Virus record (IMG/VR): IMGVR_UViG_3300009285_003776
Coordinates: 1-22,270 of that record
From: a virus
Reading direction: 5' to 3' (one strand)
Length of the DNA stretch: 22,270 nt
Shown: positions 1 to 7,700 of the stretch, piece after piece
Numbering within the stretch: position 1 is the stretch's first letter
Layout of the letters: each line of letters begins with the position of its first letter
Notes under the pieces: model-generated
Databases searched by the model: none
The model's input: only the letters and a program-made list of their open reading frames with translations
Told to the model about the DNA's origin: nothing
Made by a program: the position numbers and the translations under genes

Positions 1-318
1 CACGGCGCAATCATACCATTTTGGAGTGTCCCTGACGTAGCGCTCAATCCCGACACCTACGGCACCCGCCGCGCCGGTTGAGCCTGTGGCACCTGTCGCG
101 CCAGTAGATCCCGTAGCGCCCACCCCGCCAGTAGCACCCGTAGCCCCGGTCGCGCCAGTCGCGCCTATCCCGCTTATAAAAACAGGATGGGCGGCGGAGG
201 CCCCGAGCACGTTGAACCCGGATGCTGAAGTGCTGTCCACCAAAACCGTGGGCTGAACAGGGACAGACGCGAGAGCAGTCTGTGCGAATATGAATAACAG
301 AGGGAGAAGGTGTCTCAT
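1..318 (-). CDS. Secreted collagen-like repeat protein, fibre-like (3' end beyond window)
   Basis: This open frame starts at ATG 316-318 and runs off the left edge, so only the first 106 residues are visible. Residues 1-18 look like a Sec signal peptide: a basic start (MRH), a hydrophobic core (LLPLLFIFAQTA) and an ALA cleavage site before S18. Residues 52-87 are twelve Gly-X-Y triplets, mostly GAT, with GGV, GST, GAA and GAV variants, as in bacterial and phage collagen-like stalks that form trimeric rods. After the repeat the sequence becomes ordinary (IERYVRDTPKWYDC), probably the start of a globular head. The start codon overlaps the stop of the upstream gene (ATGA), so translation is probably coupled; no strong ribosome-binding site is seen. 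It is the last visible gene of the exported cluster. A stalk or fibre role is inferred. The signal peptide is unusual for a virion fibre. Confidence 0.72.
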   Translation of the reverse strand, partial: MRHLLPLLFIFAQTALASVPVQPTVLVDSTSASGFNVLGASAAHPVFISGIGATGATGATGATGGVGATGSTGATGATGSTGAAGAVGVGIERYVRDTPKWYDCAV

Positions 319-653
319 ATTGTCGCCAATCCGTTCACTATCAGACTCGTGGCCACCCCCAAATTTAACGCCGCCACTCTGAGTCGTATATACGCGGAGG
401 GGAACACAAGGGCGCCGGAAAAAGATATGTCGCTTCCATCCCCGGTGGCGTGGGTCAGAATGGGGCTGAAGTTTGTGCCATCCAGGCTCCCTTCGATGAC
501 CACCATCCAACTGTCGGCCGCCACCGGGCTGCCCACCACCTGAAGAGAGAAGCGGCGTAGCAGTAAGGACGAGGGGATGGCCTCGCCGGCGGTCGCCGCG
601 GCGAATGTCTCTCTAATCGTTATCCCTTTGCCAGCTACGGTGCTATAAGCCAT
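315..653 (-). CDS. Small beta-rich phage protein, unknown function
   Basis: This encodes 112 residues from ATG 651-653. An in-frame GTG at 671 would extend it but lies inside the preceding gene. The ATG overlaps the preceding stop as TAATG, and its own TGA overlaps the next ATG as ATGA, so three genes are translationally chained. There is no signal peptide or membrane segment. The composition and the motifs SLQVVGSP, WMVVIEGSLDGTNF and YIRLRVAALNLG look like a beta-sandwich similar to small phage proteins that pair 'EGSLDGTNF' with 'P-x-YIRLRV'. These are often encoded near tail or neck genes and have no assigned function. A virion or fibre-accessory role is inferred from position only. Confidence 0.7.
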   Translation of the reverse strand: MAYSTVAGKGITIRETFAAATAGEAIPSSLLLRRFSLQVVGSPVAADSWMVVIEGSLDGTNFSPILTHATGDGSDISFSGALVFPSAYIRLRVAALNLGVATSLIVNGLATI

Positions 654-883
654 TATTTCATCCCAAGCCACCGAGAGCGTTTCAGCAGGTCAGTGAGGCT
701 TACCCCGACAATGACAGCCAGGTAGACAGACGTGAAGTACTCGGGGTAGGGCTTTTCCCCCACCACATCCCGCCATAATAGCCAGAAGAATAGATAAGTG
801 AACGCGGAAAGAACAACGTATCCGGGCGGGAAAAAGATAGCGGAGAGCCCGCGTTTCAAGGCACTTACGATTTTTGGTAGCAT
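653..883 (-). CDS. Small two-helix membrane protein, holin-like
   Basis: This encodes 76 residues from ATG 881-883, with a strong Shine-Dalgarno AAAGGAG eight bases upstream. An in-frame TTG at 907 would start inside the previous gene and is not needed. The N-terminus is basic (MLPKIVSALKRG). Two hydrophobic stretches follow, about residues 20-40 (AIFFPPGYVVLSAFTYLFFW) and 57-70 (YLAVIVGVSL), separated by a charged loop (RDVVGEKPYPE), and the C-terminus is basic (KRSRWLGMK). Size, topology and position in a late cluster resemble class II holins, but no family signature is recognised and no endolysin is evident nearby. It could equally be another small phage membrane protein. The stop overlaps the next start (TAATG). 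Confidence 0.72.
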   Translation of the reverse strand: MLPKIVSALKRGLSAIFFPPGYVVLSAFTYLFFWLLWRDVVGEKPYPEYFTSVYLAVIVGVSLTDLLKRSRWLGMK

Positions 884-897
884 GTGAAATTCTCCTT

Positions 898-1341
898 TTA
901 TCCCCAAAACAGCCTAAAACTACGCGGCGTGCCTATCATCTGTCTGTTGAGTTGCGGCTCGATCCACCGGTAAATGCCGCGGTCGTCCCGGTGCCACACC
1001 CAGGCGTGGAGTTTGTCTTCTGCATTATGCCCGTCCACCTGGCCAAATGTCAGTGCCTTGTGATCCCGTGCCTCTTCCGCCCAGCCCCTTTTAACGTCGG
1101 CTTCAAAGCACACGGCGTAGTCGTCGCAGTCAAAAGCGTCTTTGGCGTAAAAAGGCTCAGTCCTCCGGTAGTCAGCTACCAACTCCATGAAGTCGGCGAA
1201 GGGGATGGCCTGGTAGTCCCTGTCGCGGAGATACACCCCCGCCGGATTTCGCGCCCACAGTTCTTCATAAAGCGTATTGGACGGAACGGGGGCACCAAGT
1301 TTGGCCCACTTTTTGCGTGTTAAGAAGGAGAAGAAGGACAT
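898..1341 (-). CDS. Transglutaminase/papain-like fold protein, possible cysteine peptidase
   Basis: This encodes 147 residues from ATG 1339-1341, with GAGGT as ribosome-binding site. A GTG at 1362 lies inside the upstream gene and is rejected. The diagnostic pattern is FDCDDYA (Cys near residue 71), then HAWVWH, then WIEPQ. Phage and bacterial proteins with a transglutaminase/papain-like fold carry Cys, His and a third polar residue in this order, and 'DCDDFA...HAW...EPQ' is a recurrent small phage form, sometimes annotated agglutinin- or transglutaminase-like. A catalytic Cys/His pair is therefore visible. Substrate and reaction are unknown: peptide hydrolysis, cross-linking of virion or surface proteins, or a non-enzymatic role are all possible. 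There is no signal peptide. It sits between a secreted fibre-like gene and a holin-like gene, which leaves a lysis role open but unproven. Confidence 0.72.
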   Translation of the reverse strand: MSFFSFLTRKKWAKLGAPVPSNTLYEELWARNPAGVYLRDRDYQAIPFADFMELVADYRRTEPFYAKDAFDCDDYAVCFEADVKRGWAEEARDHKALTFGQVDGHNAEDKLHAWVWHRDDRGIYRWIEPQLNRQMIGTPRSFRLFWG

Positions 1342-1343
1342 AA

Positions 1344-2156
1344 CTACCTCGGTATCCAACACCGATAGACGTGTTGTGTCGTTCGCGTGTCAACTGTCGG
1401 GATCCCGGTGTTAAGTCTGAGAAAACCGTTTTCGGTAACTTCCCACCCGACGTCACCAAGCCACTCGCTGTCGTCGGTCTCGTCGGTTAAACTGTAGGCG
1501 TTGAAGGCTATGTCGTCCTCTTGCGCCGTGGGGAGTCTCCCCCCGAAGAGAGCGAAGCAGGTGGTGGAGGCAGCTACTTGGCTGTCTGTCCCCCATTCCA
1601 TATTCTGGATGCAGCCGAGTTGCGTCCCCTGGGATTGGACAGAGGTGAAACTTGACCCCCGTATATCAGGGCACGTTCGCGTCATGCTGGACGCGGCGGG
1701 TATATTGAAATATACACTGGAGTTAAATGCAGCGGACGACGCGAAAGTAGCGGGCGACGCGAAAGTAGCGGGCGACGCGAAAGTAGCGGACGACGCGAAA
1801 GTAGTTCCACCAGTAAATGTTTGTGTCGACACCAAGGATACGGCGTTTATGGCGTCTATGTTCGCCTGTAACGCGGTGGTCGTGACAGCTATGGCGGTTA
1901 ATGAGGGGGAAGAAAAGGCGCTTATGGTGGATACGGTTATGGACGACACCGAAATAGTGGTGGCGGTGATCTTCCCCCCGGTTCCATTCAGTGTTATGGT
2001 GTAGGTGGACCACGAGGCTGTCGAGGCGGCGATGTCCAGTTTGCCACTCCAATGTTGATAGACTTTCCCGGCGGTAGTCTCGTACCGCGTCCCCTCATAG
2101 GTGCTCGCGCTAAGGAGAAAAGGTAATAGCACCAGAACAGCGAATAGAAAGCGCAT
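1344..2156 (-). CDS. Secreted Ser/Thr-rich repeat protein with possible C-type-lectin-like C-terminal domain
   Basis: This encodes 270 residues from ATG 2154-2156, with ribosome-binding site AAAGGAG. Residues 1-17 form a strong Sec signal peptide (MRFLFAVLVLLPFLLSAS). Residues about 40-115 are rich in Ser, Thr, Ile and Val in short beta-type repeats. Residues 119-142 are a tandem six-residue repeat TFASSA/TFASPA matching 18-bp DNA repeats. The C-terminal domain from about residue 162 has four cysteines (about 162, 182, 200, 266), the motif CFALFGGRLPTAQE, Trp-rich strands and a terminal YRCWIPR. 'GGRLPT-x-x-E' is typical of the formylglycine-generating-enzyme/C-type-lectin-like fold used for binding. 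The order signal peptide, stalk, repeat, head suggests an exported adhesin or fibre tip. The lectin assignment rests on a short motif. Confidence 0.8.
   Translation of the reverse strand: MRFLFAVLVLLPFLLSASTYEGTRYETTAGKVYQHWSGKLDIAASTASWSTYTITLNGTGGKITATTISVSSITVSTISAFSSPSLTAIAVTTTALQANIDAINAVSLVSTQTFTGGTTFASSATFASPATFASPATFASSAAFNSSVYFNIPAASSMTRTCPDIRGSSFTSVQSQGTQLGCIQNMEWGTDSQVAASTTCFALFGGRLPTAQEDDIAFNAYSLTDETDDSEWLGDVGWEVTENGFLRLNTGIPTVDTRTTQHVYRCWIPR
1738..1804. repeat. 18-bp in-frame tandem repeat, about 3.7 copies
   Basis: Plus-strand units of the form gacgcgaaagtagcggRc begin at 1738, 1756, 1774 and 1792; the last is cut after 13 bases. The unit is 18 bp, so each copy adds six residues (ATFASP or ATFASS) to the secreted protein without a frameshift. 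Copies are identical except at the wobble-like g/a position that switches Pro and Ser. Copy number could vary by slippage, changing stalk length. Confidence 0.9.
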
Positions 2157-2189
2157 CGTCGTCTCCTTTATTCAATCCCGCCGATCTTC

Positions 2190-3248
2190 TTAATGTATCC
2201 CCACGCAGATATAATTAACTTTGTCACCCGCGTCCCATGCTCCGGTGTTAGGCACGAATGTCATGCTGGACGCTGATATCTGCGAGATTATGGCACCTTC
2301 TGTGGCGGTGGCCACGACTCCGGTCATAACGCATACGGGCGTCGCGTCATATTGTGAACCGAAACTTATACCGCATGATGAATTGGCTCCGGAGAACGTA
2401 ACCGAACCCGCTGTATCTCTTGAATTGGAAGTCATTGCGGCATTTGCACAGGTTGCCAGAGAAGTAGTTGACCCATAGATACTTAAGTGCCCGTCAGGAT
2501 GAACTCCAAAAGAAGACTCCCCGGTTGAGGATGATATCTTAAGCGCGTAATCTTGATTCGCAGACGCTTTAATATGTAACTGCGCTACAGGTGTGGTCGT
2601 GCCAATGCCTACATTACCAGCCGTAACCACAAAGGTCGAAGTGCCCACGGAGAAGGCGTTGCCGGTAATCGTGCCAGTCGTGGCGGTGATATTCCCTAAA
2701 AAAGAGGCGGAGCCGTCACTGCCATTTATACGTAATTTTTCAGAGGATGCCACATTATCATCTCGCAGTTGAACGGAAAAATAGGCTGATGTGCTAGTAG
2801 CATTTTCCCAATAAGCACCTATCTTCCCCTGCTCCACAAGCCCTGCCGCTGCGTTTGTCCCATACCACGCAAGAGGCAATCCAGCATTTGCTGTCAGGCT
2901 GGTTCTATCCAGAAGAACTATCCCCTGCCTAGAAGCCACAGTAGTACTTATCTGCAACATAGAGGTAGAAACTGCGTCTCCTGTCGCATTTAGCCCCATC
3001 CTACCCCTAATATCAAGATCAAATACTGGAACAGAGATACCTATCCCCACTTTGCTGGCGAATTGTGACGCACCCGTCACCGTCAAGCTGCTGCCCGACA
3101 GCGTAAGCGGGCCTGTCATGGTGTCGCCGAGTATGTTGACGTATCGGGTGTCACTCCCCCCAAATCCTTCCATCGCCCCCGACGGAGATACTATCTGCGC
3201 GGACGCGGGGATAACCGAGCACAAAAGAATAATGATAAAGGCTTTCAT
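2190..3248 (-). CDS. Secreted tail-fibre-like protein with NVGIGTT motif and Cys-containing C-terminal domain
   Basis: This encodes 352 residues from ATG 3246-3248, with GGAGA as ribosome-binding site. A further in-frame ATG at 3347 is rejected because it overlaps the upstream gene by about 100 bp and would bury the signal peptide. Residues 1-18 are a Sec signal peptide (MKAFIIILLCSVIPASAQ). Fibre-type motifs follow: GDTMTGPLTLSGSSLTVTG near residue 40, then FSVGTSTFVVTAGNVGIGTT and PVAQLHI further on, as found in beta-helical fibres of phages and of surface proteins from uncultured bacteria. The last 90 residues contain four cysteines (LATCANA, SSCGISF, PVCVMTG, YICVGIH) in a pattern recurrent at the C-terminus of exported fibre-like proteins, suggesting disulphides. 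The middle is more AT-rich than its flanks, as if exchanged. Role inferred: exported fibre or adhesin. Confidence 0.82.
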   Translation of the reverse strand: MKAFIIILLCSVIPASAQIVSPSGAMEGFGGSDTRYVNILGDTMTGPLTLSGSSLTVTGASQFASKVGIGISVPVFDLDIRGRMGLNATGDAVSTSMLQISTTVASRQGIVLLDRTSLTANAGLPLAWYGTNAAAGLVEQGKIGAYWENATSTSAYFSVQLRDDNVASSEKLRINGSDGSASFLGNITATTGTITGNAFSVGTSTFVVTAGNVGIGTTTPVAQLHIKASANQDYALKISSSTGESSFGVHPDGHLSIYGSTTSLATCANAAMTSNSRDTAGSVTFSGANSSCGISFGSQYDATPVCVMTGVVATATEGAIISQISASSMTFVPNTGAWDAGDKVNYICVGIH

Positions 3249-3250
3249 TT

Positions 3251-3685
3251 TTATCTCCAGGCCACGCCGCCGACTATGAGAGTTCCAGCCGATCCGGCCG
3301 CATTTAAACAATAGACTGCCATTCCTTTGCCAAGTTTCCACACCCATACAGCCCCGGGGGTGACGGCGAAAGAATTGGACACGGTGAGGCCAGACGCGCT
3401 ATAGCCACAATACATATTCACGGAACCGTTGTTCTGTGTGGTTATTTCTGCCCTCTGGTAATTCGCTCCGCAGGCAGAGAGCGCCGCCGCGTTAAACGCC
3501 GTATCTATCCGGGTTATTACCGAAGACGACACGGACACGGCGGAAACGGATCCGGTGGTGCAGGTTATGGATGGGGACAGCTCATTGGAGTAAGGGAGGG
3601 TTCCGAGAACATAAGATGGGGACGCGGCTTCAGCTCCCGCCACAAGACATCCCAACAACCCCAGGCCCATCAAAATCTTTTTCAT
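3251..3685 (-). CDS. Small secreted beta-rich protein
   Basis: This encodes 144 residues from ATG 3683-3685, overlapping the preceding stop as ATGA, with AAGGGGA upstream. Residues 1-21 form a signal peptide (MKKILMGLGLLGCLVAGAEA) with cleavage expected after AEA. A Cys at residue 13 in LLGC also resembles a weak lipobox, but the residues after it remain hydrophobic, so signal peptidase I is favoured. The mature part is small and beta-rich, with four cysteines (ITCTTG, LSACGAN, MYCGYSAS, VYCLNAAG) likely to pair in an oxidising compartment. The end pattern 'CGYSASGLTVSNSFAVTPG ... VYCLN' resembles small phage proteins encoded beside fibre genes, which lack an assigned function. The next gene starts three bases after its stop. 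Confidence 0.78.
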   Translation of the reverse strand: MKKILMGLGLLGCLVAGAEAASPSYVLGTLPYSNELSPSITCTTGSVSAVSVSSSVITRIDTAFNAAALSACGANYQRAEITTQNNGSVNMYCGYSASGLTVSNSFAVTPGAVWVWKLGKGMAVYCLNAAGSAGTLIVGGVAWR

Positions 3686-3921
3686 TTGCTTTTCCCCTTT
3701 ATACCAGCTACCCCTACTCCCGCCTCCGGATGCTTCGCCAAATAGTCCAGCATTATCATTTGCCTGCGTATGGCGTCTGCCTCATAAACTGCTATCTGAG
3801 GGTTCTGCATTTCCACCGGAGGCGCGACCGGGTTTGCCATCCGGCTATTTACGTATGTCTGATGCCCCCAAGTGAACAGCAGCATACCGCCAAACGCTAT
3901 GTAAAAGACTTCTTCGCACAT
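3682..3921 (-). CDS. Small N-terminally membrane-anchored protein, unknown function
   Basis: This encodes 79 residues from ATG 3919-3921. Its TGA overlaps the next gene's ATG, which supports it as a genuine coupled gene. Residues 5-18 are hydrophobic (VFYIAFGGMLLFTW), then come a polar Pro-containing linker (MANPVAPPVEMQNPQ), a short probable helix (YEADAIRRQMIMLDYLAKHP) and a basic end (KGKSK). An N-terminal anchor with a cytoplasmic or periplasmic helix is the only visible structure. The first 77 bases overlap the end of the upstream frame. Internal ATGs (for example MLLFTW) are possible starts but have weaker upstream sites. No family is recognised; a spanin-like or accessory membrane role is speculative. 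Confidence 0.6.
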   Translation of the reverse strand: MCEEVFYIAFGGMLLFTWGHQTYVNSRMANPVAPPVEMQNPQIAVYEADAIRRQMIMLDYLAKHPEAGVGVAGIKGKSK

Positions 3922-4123
3922 TCTCGCACCCCGTTTTGTAGTAGATGCAGGCGTAGTCAGGCGACTGCATACTCATAAAACCGACCGCGGGGGGTGTTCT
4001 GGCTACCCACAACTGGTCTTCGACGTAGAAGTTCATCGCGCACAGAATGAAAGTCAAAGCCAGAAACACCCACCGCAGTAAGGAGACCACTCGCCTATTA
4101 CGGAACAAACGTACCCGCGGCAT
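3845..4123 (-). CDS. Small basic single-pass membrane protein, unknown function
   Basis: This encodes 92 residues from ATG 4121-4123. The start lies inside the last 26 bases of the upstream gene but has an excellent Shine-Dalgarno GGAGG eight bases before it, which decides the start. The N-terminus is strongly basic (MPRVRLFRNRR), followed by one hydrophobic segment at residues about 13-31 (VSLLRWVFLALTFILCAM), giving an N-in signal anchor. The remainder is polar with two further cysteines (DYACIYYKTGCENV). Its 3' third overlaps the next gene in another frame by 77 bases. Overlapping pairs of small membrane genes recall spanins, but there is no coiled coil or clear lipobox, so no function is assigned. 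Confidence 0.55.
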   Translation of the reverse strand: MPRVRLFRNRRVVSLLRWVFLALTFILCAMNFYVEDQLWVARTPPAVGFMSMQSPDYACIYYKTGCENVRRSLLHSVWRYAAVHLGASDIRK

Positions 4124-4637
4124 TTACGAAACCTCCGACTATCGTCCATATGGGGAGAGGGGGAGTGCAGTTTGAACAGAAATACGCCTGCCCCTTGACG
4201 GTGGGCGTCATCTGCACTATCTCCTGAAGCGATATGGGGTGAAACTGGATGTACCCGCCGGCGGTGATATTGGAAGTCACTGACACGTCATGGGGGGCCA
4301 CGGTGCCTGAGAAGTCGGCGCCCGCGCCAGTCAGAGTTCCGGTTATGCCCACCGTTCCCCCGACGTTTATGGACCCGCTGAACGTCCCCGAAACAAAATG
4401 AACACTGTCAGTGGTCTGGAGATTCTGGTTCATAAGCCGCATTTCGGCCACGCCGTTTCCGGTGTCTATCGATGACCCGACTATCGCGCCCGCCGCGCTG
4501 ATGGATGCCACTTCCGTTCCGCGAGTCGTTTCAACCACCAGGGCTTCGCCGTATAAAGTGCCGGTCGTCCGGGCGACAGCGTAAGATACTGCGAACACTA
4601 AAACCAACAACGCCAACTGCCATTTCGTGACTCTCAT
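4098..4637 (-). CDS. Secreted phage tail-fibre-like protein
   Basis: This encodes 179 residues from ATG 4635-4637, with a strong ribosome-binding site AAGGAGA. The frame stays open upstream, but any earlier start would lie within or just after the promoter, so this ATG is chosen. Residues 1-23 are a Sec signal peptide (MRVTKWQLALLVLVFAVSYA, cleavage near AVA-R). The centre carries a recognisable phage fibre motif, MNQNLQTTDSVHFVSGTFSG, followed by Gly/Thr/Val-rich short repeats typical of beta-helical fibres. The end has a CxxC (YFCSNCTPP) and a small domain finishing NAAGTFVP. It is the first gene after a perfect promoter and heads the exported cluster. A fibre fold is well supported; the destination (virion or host envelope) is not. 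Confidence 0.8.
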   Translation of the reverse strand: MRVTKWQLALLVLVFAVSYAVARTTGTLYGEALVVETTRGTEVASISAAGAIVGSSIDTGNGVAEMRLMNQNLQTTDSVHFVSGTFSGSINVGGTVGITGTLTGAGADFSGTVAPHDVSVTSNITAGGYIQFHPISLQEIVQMTPTVKGQAYFCSNCTPPLPIWTIVGGFVNAAGTFVP

Positions 4638-4671: not shown

Positions 4672-4700
4672 ATTATACTACAACCGCCACAGTCTGTCAA
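4672..4700 (-). promoter_or_regulatory. Consensus sigma-70-type promoter for the exported/fibre cluster
   Basis: On the minus strand the sequence reads TTGACA (4695-4700), a spacer of exactly 17 bases, and TATAAT (4672-4677), a perfect match to the bacterial housekeeping consensus. The -35 box begins at the base directly after the TAG stop of the large ejection-protein gene. Initiation is expected near 4665, giving a leader of about 30 nt with AAGGAGA before ATG 4637. The spacer shares most bases with the promoter before the capsid gene. Confidence 0.9.
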
Positions 4701-7700
4701 CTATTCTGTAACCAACCCAAATCCTTTGCGCTTTTTTCTGTCGGAGAGCGCCTTTTCTGTCACGAGACCGAGCCCCGCCCCGCCAGTGCGTTTCGCCTGT
4801 TCTTTGACCATATAGGGTGAATACCCTGCCAGCAGCTTCACGTTGTCCATAAATTCCCCCTCCCCCTTCGCCATTGAAGACAACGCCGCCGCCCCTCGCA
4901 CGAAAGGTTCGGTGGGAAGCCCCCATACCCCCTTAAAAACGGGGTCAGAGAGCAGGGCCAAAGCCCCCGCCACGTCAGCCACCGACGCCGAGTTCATCAG
5001 CTCTTTCGTGCCTTTTTCCAGATCGCGTATCCAAGAGTCGTATATGGTCCCGGCGCCCATCGGGATGTCGCTGTCTTTCATTATCTGGTGGTAGAGTTTA
5101 AGAACCACTTGCGACAGCAAGGGGACAGAATTGAACGACCCCAATATGGCCGCCCGTTTCTGCTTCTCCTCGTCCCATCCGGCGTCCACTATGGCTTGAA
5201 ATAGCATGGGGATGAATATGTGAAATAGCACCAAAGTCTTTGCCACCTCAGTCCTCGTCATGCGCCCCTCGCCTTTTAGGAATCCTCTAGTAGCCATAGC
5301 CCTAAACGCCTGCATTTCAAGGCGCACGAATTGGAGCGGCTGGTTCTGGTAAAGGGTGAAGAGCCTGGCGAATCCCCCGCCCCCGGTTGACCCCTGTAAT
5401 ACCGACAAAGTATCCATACTCCCCGTGGATTGTGTATCCCGCGCCGTTTTAGACGCCACGGCCACCGCCGCGTCAACTGTCATCCCTTTCGATCGCCCGT
5501 AACGGTAGAGCGCGTCTCCGCCCACAAGAATAGAGACTTTATCCCCCCATTGAATGAATTTGGCCAACATTTCTATGATGGACGGATTGCGGAGAAAAGA
5601 CCCCGACTTCGCCCAATCTTCCCACGCCCTTAATTCTTGCGACTGGTTCATACCACGGGAGCGCACAAAGTCTGAGTTCACCCACTCTTTTGAAAAGCCT
5701 TTGATCGCCACATTCCCTATCTCGGTTAAAAAGAGGTGCAGGTCTTGTATGGGGATGGCATTAAGAAACGCTGGCATGGCCGACAACTGTTTAGGTATAG
5801 CCACGGCCTTCCCCACGATCTCGGCTATGGCGAGGCGGGTTATGACCTGGTTAAACCCGCGCATGAGCATCTGTTCGTGGGTGCCCGATGTTACGCGAGA
5901 TACCATTGTCTCGAGCGCCTGGAGCGCCTCGGAACCATAAACCCCCGTAACGAAAGCCCGGAAACGCGGGGTAGCAAGAACTTTATTCCACTCTCTGACT
6001 TTCCCCTCGAACGCGATAAAATGCGCCATGTCATAGACGTGCTTATTAAAAACAGCTTCCGCGCTTGTTTGGTCGAGGGGGAGTGTGTGGCGTGTGCGAT
6101 TTATGGCCCACGGGCCAAGAGTGGTTTTAGGGGAGAGATGCTGCGACAGAGCCGCGGAACTGTCCGGATCTAACGCCGGACCATCTTTTCCCCGGAACCC
6201 AATCACGGAGATGGGGCTATAAAAAGCGTTAAAGGGCAAGTCTACTCCACGCACTTTGCGATAGATAGCGTTGACCTGTTTATACATTTCGCGGTATAGG
6301 CCGAGTTGCCCCATCGCAAAGCGTTTATCCCCGTCCGTCAAAACCCCGAAAATCTCCCTTTCCATTTCAGGAGTGTATGCGAGGCCCGTCGGTTCAAAAA
6401 GATTCTGCGCCAGAGTCGGGTCTTGCCTTTCCATGTAGCGTTTAATCGCCTCGAAAACCGAGAAGTCCAATTTCACGATCTGCCCAGCGGCGTTCTTATG
6501 TGCCCCTAAATCGTGTCTCTCTACCAAACGCGATTTTAACCTATTTAACTGCCGGCGTTTAGCATCTATGGATCCGTCAAACCCGTATGCCTTCGCCGCA
6601 GCATCAACATAAGCGTCGTGCCAATCTTGTATCAATCCGTCTTTCCTGATAGCGGCTTCCGACGGGTCAAAAACTCGGCTTATCCAACTGCCCCCTGTCT
6701 TTTTTGACGATCGCTGGGAGATAGCATCCGCCAACGACCACATATTGTCTATGATTTTTTTACCCGCCGCCCAGAGAACGGACCTAGCCTTTTCCGCTCC
6801 CTTTACCCACCCATAACTCTCGACCCGGCCCTTGTCCCAGCCCTCGGGCTCGATTATCTGCCCCATCGCGTCGTTAATCCCCGCATCCACTTCTTTCGCA
6901 AACGCTTCTTTCTCGGCCAATTTCTGTGCGAGAAACTTTGACTTCGCCCCCTCTATCATGGACGCGACATCTTTAACGAAGGCCACGCTGTCCCGCATGG
7001 AGAGATTGCCTGCCCTGTACTGAAGCGCCTGCAACTGATAACGGGCCTTAGCGTGTTCTAAAGGGGCGTAGTCGGGGGCTGACTCATCCTCGGTTTTCAG
7101 GAGGGCGTCTTCTGCGTCGGCTATCTCTAAAGCCGAGCGCTCCCGAGTTAATTTAAGCGCGTTTGTCACAACTGAAACCAACGACTGCGTATCAGCATCG
7201 CCTAAACGCCCGATGGCTTTCTTCCCCGTCGGTTTTGTTTTGGCCGATTTCAACTCTTTTCGGAGAAAAGCGTCCGCCGCTTTGCCCCGCGCTATATCCT
7301 CGGCTTCAAAAATTCTATCACGGATTTCGGGGTAGTTTTTCTCCAGCTGTTCTACCGTTAAAGTGTTGCGGAGAATACCGTCAAAGTGCTTTTTCTGTGA
7401 ATCGGTCATGCCCGACCGTTTTACCAACTCAGAAATATATCGCTGCACTTTTTTGACTTCCCTGCGACTATACGCCTCCCCGTGTTTAAACGCCGAAATT
7501 TTAACCGCCGCGACCTTATCCACTATGGAACGCTCCATAGCCACCAAATCGGATGCCCGCACTAGCCCCATCGCCCCTGTGCGTTCCAGTTCGTCAGCCA
7601 ACTCCTCTTCCGCACCCATAGGGGTCATTACGATGTCCGCGCCTTTAGCATCGTTCTCCGAAATTTTAGCCGCGAGTTTTGACGCCCTAGCCGCGAGAGC

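Follow-up and report, generated by a model that had tools for sequence, protein, structure and literature searches.

The 22,270-base stretch of DNA analysed here (positions 1 to 22,270 of IMG/VR record IMGVR_UViG_3300009285_003776; hereafter the window) is a virus fragment on which all genes are read on the minus strand. Their order is TerS, TerL, portal, a scaffold-like protein, the major capsid protein, tail tubular proteins A and B, internal virion proteins and a gp16-like protein, and the phage is a T7-like podophage. The labels TerS, TerL and portal are based on size, gene order and relatives; the gp16-like protein has no PHROG match of its own, and therefore its label is likewise taken from size, place and relatives. 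The closest relative is a 41-kb IMG/VR contig, L002, with identities of 48% for gp16, 73% for the capsid protein and 58% for tail tubular B; phages of the annotated collection reach an identity of no more than about 36% in tail tubular B. Behind the gp16-like gene, at the tail-fibre locus, lies a late module of ten genes (Table 1), several of which encode proteins that combine a predicted Sec-type signal peptide with a fibre-like body. As judged from sequence comparison, members of this module recur in phages with three kinds of tail, which were found in Elusimicrobiota or are tied to this phylum.

All ten minus-strand open reading frames that a preliminary description had placed behind gp16 were confirmed at their positions. 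Its claim that five of them begin with Sec signal peptides and continue as fibre-like or cysteine-bearing proteins held up with a self-written scorer (not SignalP), which uses a positive n-region, a hydrophobic core and an A-X-A-type cleavage site as criteria. The genes starting at 4637, 3685, 3248, 2156 and 318 scored 13.7, 11.8, 13.1, 11.1 and 11.9, respectively, that is five of the ten genes behind gp16, whereas no score was obtained for any of the window's 14 structural genes (Fisher p = 0.006). Among structural homologues across the family only one of 112 scored, a weak false positive at 10.5, and of 2000 whole-protein shuffles for each of the five genes 0, 12, 0, 2 and 3 reached the observed values. 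Ribosome-binding sites back the starts, e.g., aaggagacaatcaaaATG at 4637 and aaaggagacgacgATG at 2156, and therefore an artefact of start choice was rejected as the source of the signal peptides. Cysteines in the mature parts of the signal-peptide proteins of the window number 2, 4, 4 and 4, and a strong membrane segment was found in none of these mature parts. The residue after the predicted cleavage site is R, A, Q, S and S, and a lipobox with Cys at +1, the criterion for a protein like Llp of phage T5, is present at none of the five sites. Two further genes had been assigned N-terminal membrane anchors; this is true for the gene at 4123, which begins with a real membrane helix; the gene at 3921 has only a weak hydrophobic stretch. 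The gene at 4123 scores 11.0 on the signal-peptide scale, and therefore the scorer cannot tell an anchor from a signal there. The consensus promoter that had been noted for the cluster is a perfect match, but a comparable promoter was not found upstream of the syntenic genes in L002, so that a promoter of its own is not a conserved trait of the module. Ordinary fibres are the rule at a tail-fibre locus, and in principle the N-termini could be signal-like hydrophobic helices of such cytoplasmic proteins. This is very improbable, given the A-X-A-type sites, the near absence of such scores in the 112 structural homologues and in the shuffles, and the retention of the signal peptides over very divergent homologues and three tail types (see below). 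With high confidence, these proteins are truly destined for export and belong to a family that recurs.

Table 1. Features of the window from the gp16-like gene to the contig end (aa, amino acids).
Feature	Position	Strand	Description
gp16-like internal virion protein, 1592 aa	4701..9479	-	48% identical in L002; marks the tail-fibre slot
sigma-70-type promoter	4672..4700	-	TTGACA-17-TATAAT; 12/12 consensus match; directly behind the gp16-like stop
SP1	4098..4637	-	predicted signal peptide (MRVTKWQLALLVLVFAVSYAVA, followed by RTTG), ARTxGxxYGxALVV-type motif, fibre-like body
92-aa protein	3845..4123	-	N-terminal membrane helix
79-aa protein	3682..3921	-	weak hydrophobic stretch behind MCEE; no signal-peptide score
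SP4	3251..3685	-	predicted signal peptide and small domain, probably beta-rich; 4 mature Cys
SPfib5	2190..3248	-	predicted signal peptide, fibre-like repeats (GDTMTGPLTLSGSSLTVTG, VGIGTTTP), 4 Cys
SP6	1344..2156	-	predicted signal peptide, conserved 45-aa N-domain (KVYQHWSGKLDIAASTASWSTYTITLNG), FASPAT repeats, Cys-containing tip
147-aa protein	898..1341	-	no signal peptide; FDCDDYA ... KLHAW (KLHAWVW); near lysis region
75-aa hydrophobic protein	653..880	-	holin-like by size and place
112-aa protein	315..653	-	no signal peptide; no family match
SPcol10	1..318	-	predicted signal peptide, collagen-like GxTGxTG repeats; gene cut by contig end

The preliminary description had proposed a search for the same cluster beside gp16-like genes, and it was found there in L002 and G280; elsewhere, the exported fibres stand beside hub or baseplate genes. 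In L002, gp16 is followed by a protein with a gp17-type fibre start but no signal peptide (a tag-less fibre, 289 aa), SP1, SP4 and a 581-aa signal-peptide fibre, and further downstream by more genes including an M15-type endolysin (typed by similarity to named ones). A 4.4-kb contig of the Elusimicrobiota genome G280 has the same order, i.e., a large partial frame, a tag-less fibre of 252 aa (53% identical to its L002 counterpart), SP1 and a signal-peptide fibre. The signal peptides are kept in the L002 homologues at only 37-40% identity, including that of SP4 (37% identical), and the SP1 homologues of L002 and G280 are signal-peptide-bearing as well. An ARTxGxxYxxALVV-type motif lies right at the SP1 cleavage site in all three phages, and the C-terminus of SP1 is a cap with CSNC. 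Exported proteins resembling SP4 also occur in the contigs L063 and L064, and the SP4-type proteins of L002 and L064 match phrog_30212. In Elusimicrobiota genomes, SP4 gave weak matches (E about 1e-3), most of them to frames of about 350 aa, and these were judged to be chance.

Other relatives within the same podophage family are free of the module. In G022:C15 (capsid identity 62%) and in G157:C52, G072, G082 and L016, gp16 is followed by a gp17-type fibre of 481-569 aa, and no exported fibre was found where the sequence is readable. The gp17-type fibre of L015 has at least 450 aa, the gene being cut by the contig end. Diversity-generating retroelements (DGRs) with a C-terminal variable repeat, a template repeat and a reverse transcriptase were observed at the fibre genes of two Elusimicrobiota-linked podophages, G022:C15 (L050, 13813-17134) and G157:C52 (L054/L055, 19807-22838). 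In the repeat pair of G022:C15, 17 of 18 differences fall on template adenines, and a reverse transcriptase of 446 aa is encoded next to it; for G157:C52 the count is 18 of 25. These DGR-diversified fibres occupy the same locus as the exported module, but a template/variable repeat pair was found neither in the window cluster nor in the L002 module, and the window cluster (on an incomplete contig) contains no reverse transcriptase gene. L016 encodes two exported proteins just upstream of tail tubular A (676-1331), one with a lipobox-like end.

The exported fibres extend beyond this podophage family. A 62-aa piece of SPfib5 as query retrieved L063, L064 and L065, which have signal-peptide fibres homologous to SPfib5, in all three cases behind virion genes. 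L063 and L064 belong to another capsid family (phrog_1357), and L065 is a siphovirus-like contig with a tape measure and large tail proteins. Relatives of the large tail ("hub") protein of L065 are present in 30 of 248 Elusimicrobiota genomes; in most of the 32 regions around them the exported fibre is absent, but G144 and G140 have it in the order hub, short tag-less protein (79 and 81 aa, respectively), signal-peptide fibre. The fibre of G144 is followed by an endolysin, and because cellular genes, such as an aminotransferase and a TrkA-N/ion-channel gene, are present on the same contig, G144 is probably a prophage. Hub units with one or two membrane proteins of about 90 aa and no fibre are found in many Elusimicrobiota genomes (L140-L152, L169, L170), some with an endolysin-like gene; they could represent gene-transfer-agent-like or domesticated tail loci. 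In two prophage regions of Elusimicrobiota with an ordinary downstream fibre (L159 and L160, in G035 and G135), a signal-peptide protein of 223-241 aa and beta-barrel-like look lies between the hub and the tag-less fibre.

About 45 residues directly behind the signal peptide are common to SP6 and the fibres of L002, L065 and G144 (L139). A model built from these four seeds matched G140 (L141) at E 1.7e-12, again behind a signal peptide, and in 315 Elusimicrobiota genomes it found only G144, G140, G280 and G252, in every case behind signal peptides. The membership of SP6 by this N-domain has to be read with SP6 being one of the seeds, and SP1 and SPfib5 are members of the exported-fibre family by synteny and shaft, not by the N-domain. 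The G252 region belongs to a contractile-tailed phage, with a sheath (E 7e-139) and a baseplate hub and wedge; its signal-peptide fibre has 1371 aa and is accompanied by two smaller exported proteins, and a tag-less fibre of 198 aa lies immediately upstream. The N-domain is thus common to podo-, sipho- and myovirus layouts. A short tag-less fibre precedes the signal-peptide fibre in each of the six Elusimicrobiota-linked cases with a sequence that could be read through, with sizes of 289 aa in L002, 252 in G280, 88 in L065, 79 in G144, 81 in G140 and 198 in G252.

Several proteins of the window module have features of their own. Tandem 18-base repeats at 1726-1815 encode the FASPAT units of SP6, likely a site of fibre-shaft length variation. 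The tip of SP6 has no relative in 150 Elusimicrobiota genomes, and a match in L128 was rejected as chance; we suspect that the tip is C-type-lectin-like. Sequence searches of the PDB with SP6 and SPfib5 yielded no match at E 1, and AlphaFold monomer models had a mean pLDDT of 48 (SP4 with four homologues) and 35 (SP6 alone). SPcol10 matches phrog_30509, a collagen-like tail protein, at E 5e-8; as the contig end cuts this gene, the module is incomplete in the window. For the 92-aa protein no family match was obtained, and the 147-aa protein, which has a weak Pfam match to Agglutinin_C (E 0.009, under the cut-off), is possibly a papain-like or transglutaminase-like enzyme.

Bacterial matches to the SPfib5 piece came only from two Elusimicrobia metagenome-assembled genomes (MAGs), and the shaft motif and an Elusimicrobia protein have 72% identity over a stretch of 29 aa. 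By eye, the signal peptides of the MAG proteins (1023 and 1237 aa) are plausible; these proteins also contain an INYQG domain of roughly 130 aa, shaft repeats like those of the phage fibre and, at the C-terminus, a cap. The SP1 cap can be aligned to these proteins as well as to the end of a 1915-aa frame in G054, and a model of the cap matches 12 of 150 genomes. In addition, relatives of the capsid protein are present in 8 of 248 Elusimicrobiota genomes. The capsid and fibre homologues make Elusimicrobiota the probable host phylum; it is not proven, because the closest relatives lie on phage-only contigs, for which mis-binning is conceivable; contigs of 124-207 kb carry several of the more distant relatives.

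A similar architecture is known from the mosaic adhesive trimer (MAT) fibres of Bdellovibrio, which also have a signal peptide, fibre-like repeats and variable C-terminal tips or caps; their signal peptide is immediately followed by a domain of about 130 aa with a presumed location at the cell surface (PMC10769870). Signal peptide, shaft motif and cap are also what the phage fibres have in common with the MAT-like secreted proteins of Elusimicrobiota (L024, L025, L049, L121). In contrast to both groups, the phage genes are mostly shorter and lie in a phage late region. The INYQG domain behind the signal peptide of the Elusimicrobiota proteins is absent from the phage fibres, none of which was matched by a hidden Markov model built from three Elusimicrobiota and no Bdellovibrio sequences, and some of the phage fibres have the 45-aa N-domain of their own. 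The S74 chaperone/protease domain of one MAT subgroup has no Pfam match in the window cluster. In part, the module genes probably derive from secreted adhesin-like host fibres, the host N-domain being replaced by a phage-specific one. Such captured fibres might serve as adhesins on infected or lysogenic cells, where attachment or aggregation would benefit the host and bring progeny close to new hosts. The homology of repeats and cap to secreted host proteins and the probable prophage G144 are in line with this lysogenic conversion, but we regard it as improbable: the N-domain is phage-specific instead of the host type, the genes have late-gene position and orientation, and no lysogeny gene is seen within the 22 kb of the window.

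Signal-peptide fibres among phage genes were also found in L007, L067, L069, L090 and L098, contigs that appear Bacteroidota-like from their signal peptides. Small exported proteins follow the fibre in four of the five, and endolysin-like genes come next in L090 and L098; endolysin genes lie near exported fibres in L002, G144, L090 and L098. Of 34 loci that have the common C-terminal tip in a readable frame, the signal peptide is confined to these five and one near-duplicate; the remaining loci have tag-less N-termini. The tail fibre of the cultured Bacteroides phage B124-14 and the fibres of Flavobacterium phage immuto have no signal peptide, and therefore the tag is not universal in phages of the phyla with tagged fibres. 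No cultured phage was matched when the phage collection was searched with SPfib5, SP6, SP4 or the fibre of G144. L004 and L005 were rejected as relatives, because they are other phages matched through the signal-peptide half only. Both have two or three repeat-bearing signal-peptide proteins beside an Hsp20-like gene (4791-6141 and 1214-2564, respectively), possibly another exported phage module.

The preliminary description had argued that the cluster is hard to explain as ordinary fibres, and the comparison with T7 gp17-type tail fibres bears this out. The locus, directly behind a gp16-like gene and before lysis genes, and the fibre-like sequence are the same, but the window proteins have signal peptides and lack the gp17-type N-terminal tail-binding domain, which in L002 and G280 is found in the separate short fibre gene. 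Llp of T5 and Cor of phi80 are exported phage envelope proteins. The antiholin RI of T4 is likewise an exported phage protein that acts at the envelope (PMC8385771). All three are phage-coded and act where the window proteins are proposed to act; however, they are smaller, are not fibres and are not encoded in a multi-gene fibre module, and Llp is a lipoprotein. In the literature searched, outside of which most subscription journals lie, the Bdellovibrio MATs were found, but no precedent for an exported phage fibre module and no report on host-linked Elusimicrobiota phages.

Of the roles put forward initially, i.e., surface remodelling, receptor blocking, decoys and extracellular assembly, the sequence cannot single one out. 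The masking of receptors at the envelope and on debris is, tentatively, the most likely role. Late in infection, the signal peptides would route the fibres through the inner membrane, beyond which they would fold, partly with disulphides, into probably trimeric fibres with tips that bind host-surface ligands. By occupying the phage's own receptors on the infected cell's envelope and debris, they would block superinfection and spare released progeny from loss on dead cells. Masking fits the extra membrane and exported proteins of the module as well as the known exported phage proteins, and the neighbours SP4 and the genes at 4123 and 880 suggest that the module is aimed at the envelope. Further support comes from the conservation of the signal peptides and of the N-domain behind them, from mature cysteine numbers that are mostly even, from the shaft and cap in common with secreted Elusimicrobiota proteins, and from the nearby endolysin genes. 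Several points speak against masking. Neither the N-terminal domain found in host fibres nor a lipobox or another surface anchor was seen in the phage proteins; the signal peptides rest on a home-made score rather than on SignalP; some exported-fibre members contain 0 or 1 cysteines; and the ordinary fibre is short in L002 (289 aa) and G280 (252 aa) and unseen in the window.

This last contrast, with 481-569 aa in the module-free relatives, comes from a small sample that is not independent of kinship, and it fits a split fibre at least as well as masking. The tag-less short protein (79-289 aa) would be an adaptor made in the cytoplasm and mounted on the tail, while the exported long fibre would fold in the periplasm, dock on the adaptor at lysis and be the true receptor-binding fibre. 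The adaptor adjoins the exported fibre in all six readable cases, the exported fibre occupies the canonical slot in podo-, sipho- and myovirus layouts with no other long fibre gene there, and cysteine-bearing tips may require an oxidising compartment. Nevertheless, this explanation is somewhat doubtful. No adaptor lies between gp16 and SP1 or elsewhere in the 22 kb of the window, in which the tail-fibre N-terminal proteins of L002 and G280 have no match; the adaptor caps resemble one another only weakly; dilution at lysis would make docking inefficient; and the extra small exported proteins are left unexplained. We know of no tailed phage that finishes its tail outside the cytoplasm. That differently built tailed phages complete their receptor-binding fibres extracytoplasmically, with docking at lysis via the conserved N-domain, is rather unlikely; if true, fibre cassettes would be swappable among podo-, sipho- and myophages, and host adhesin tips would be reusable.

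Beyond the preliminary description, the analysis added the probable host phylum, the N-domain, the paired tag-less fibre, the link to host fibres, and the ordinary or DGR-diversified fibres of relatives. Tail fibres are assumed to be synthesised and mounted on the tail within the cytoplasm. Tagged fibres that form a family with a conserved domain of its own behind the tag and that span three tail types would point either to a new way of arming the surface of the infected cell or to a novel route of assembly. The family also connects phage fibres with adhesin-like fibres secreted by a phylum that has hardly been studied, and it provides phages that are probably linked to Elusimicrobiota as hosts.

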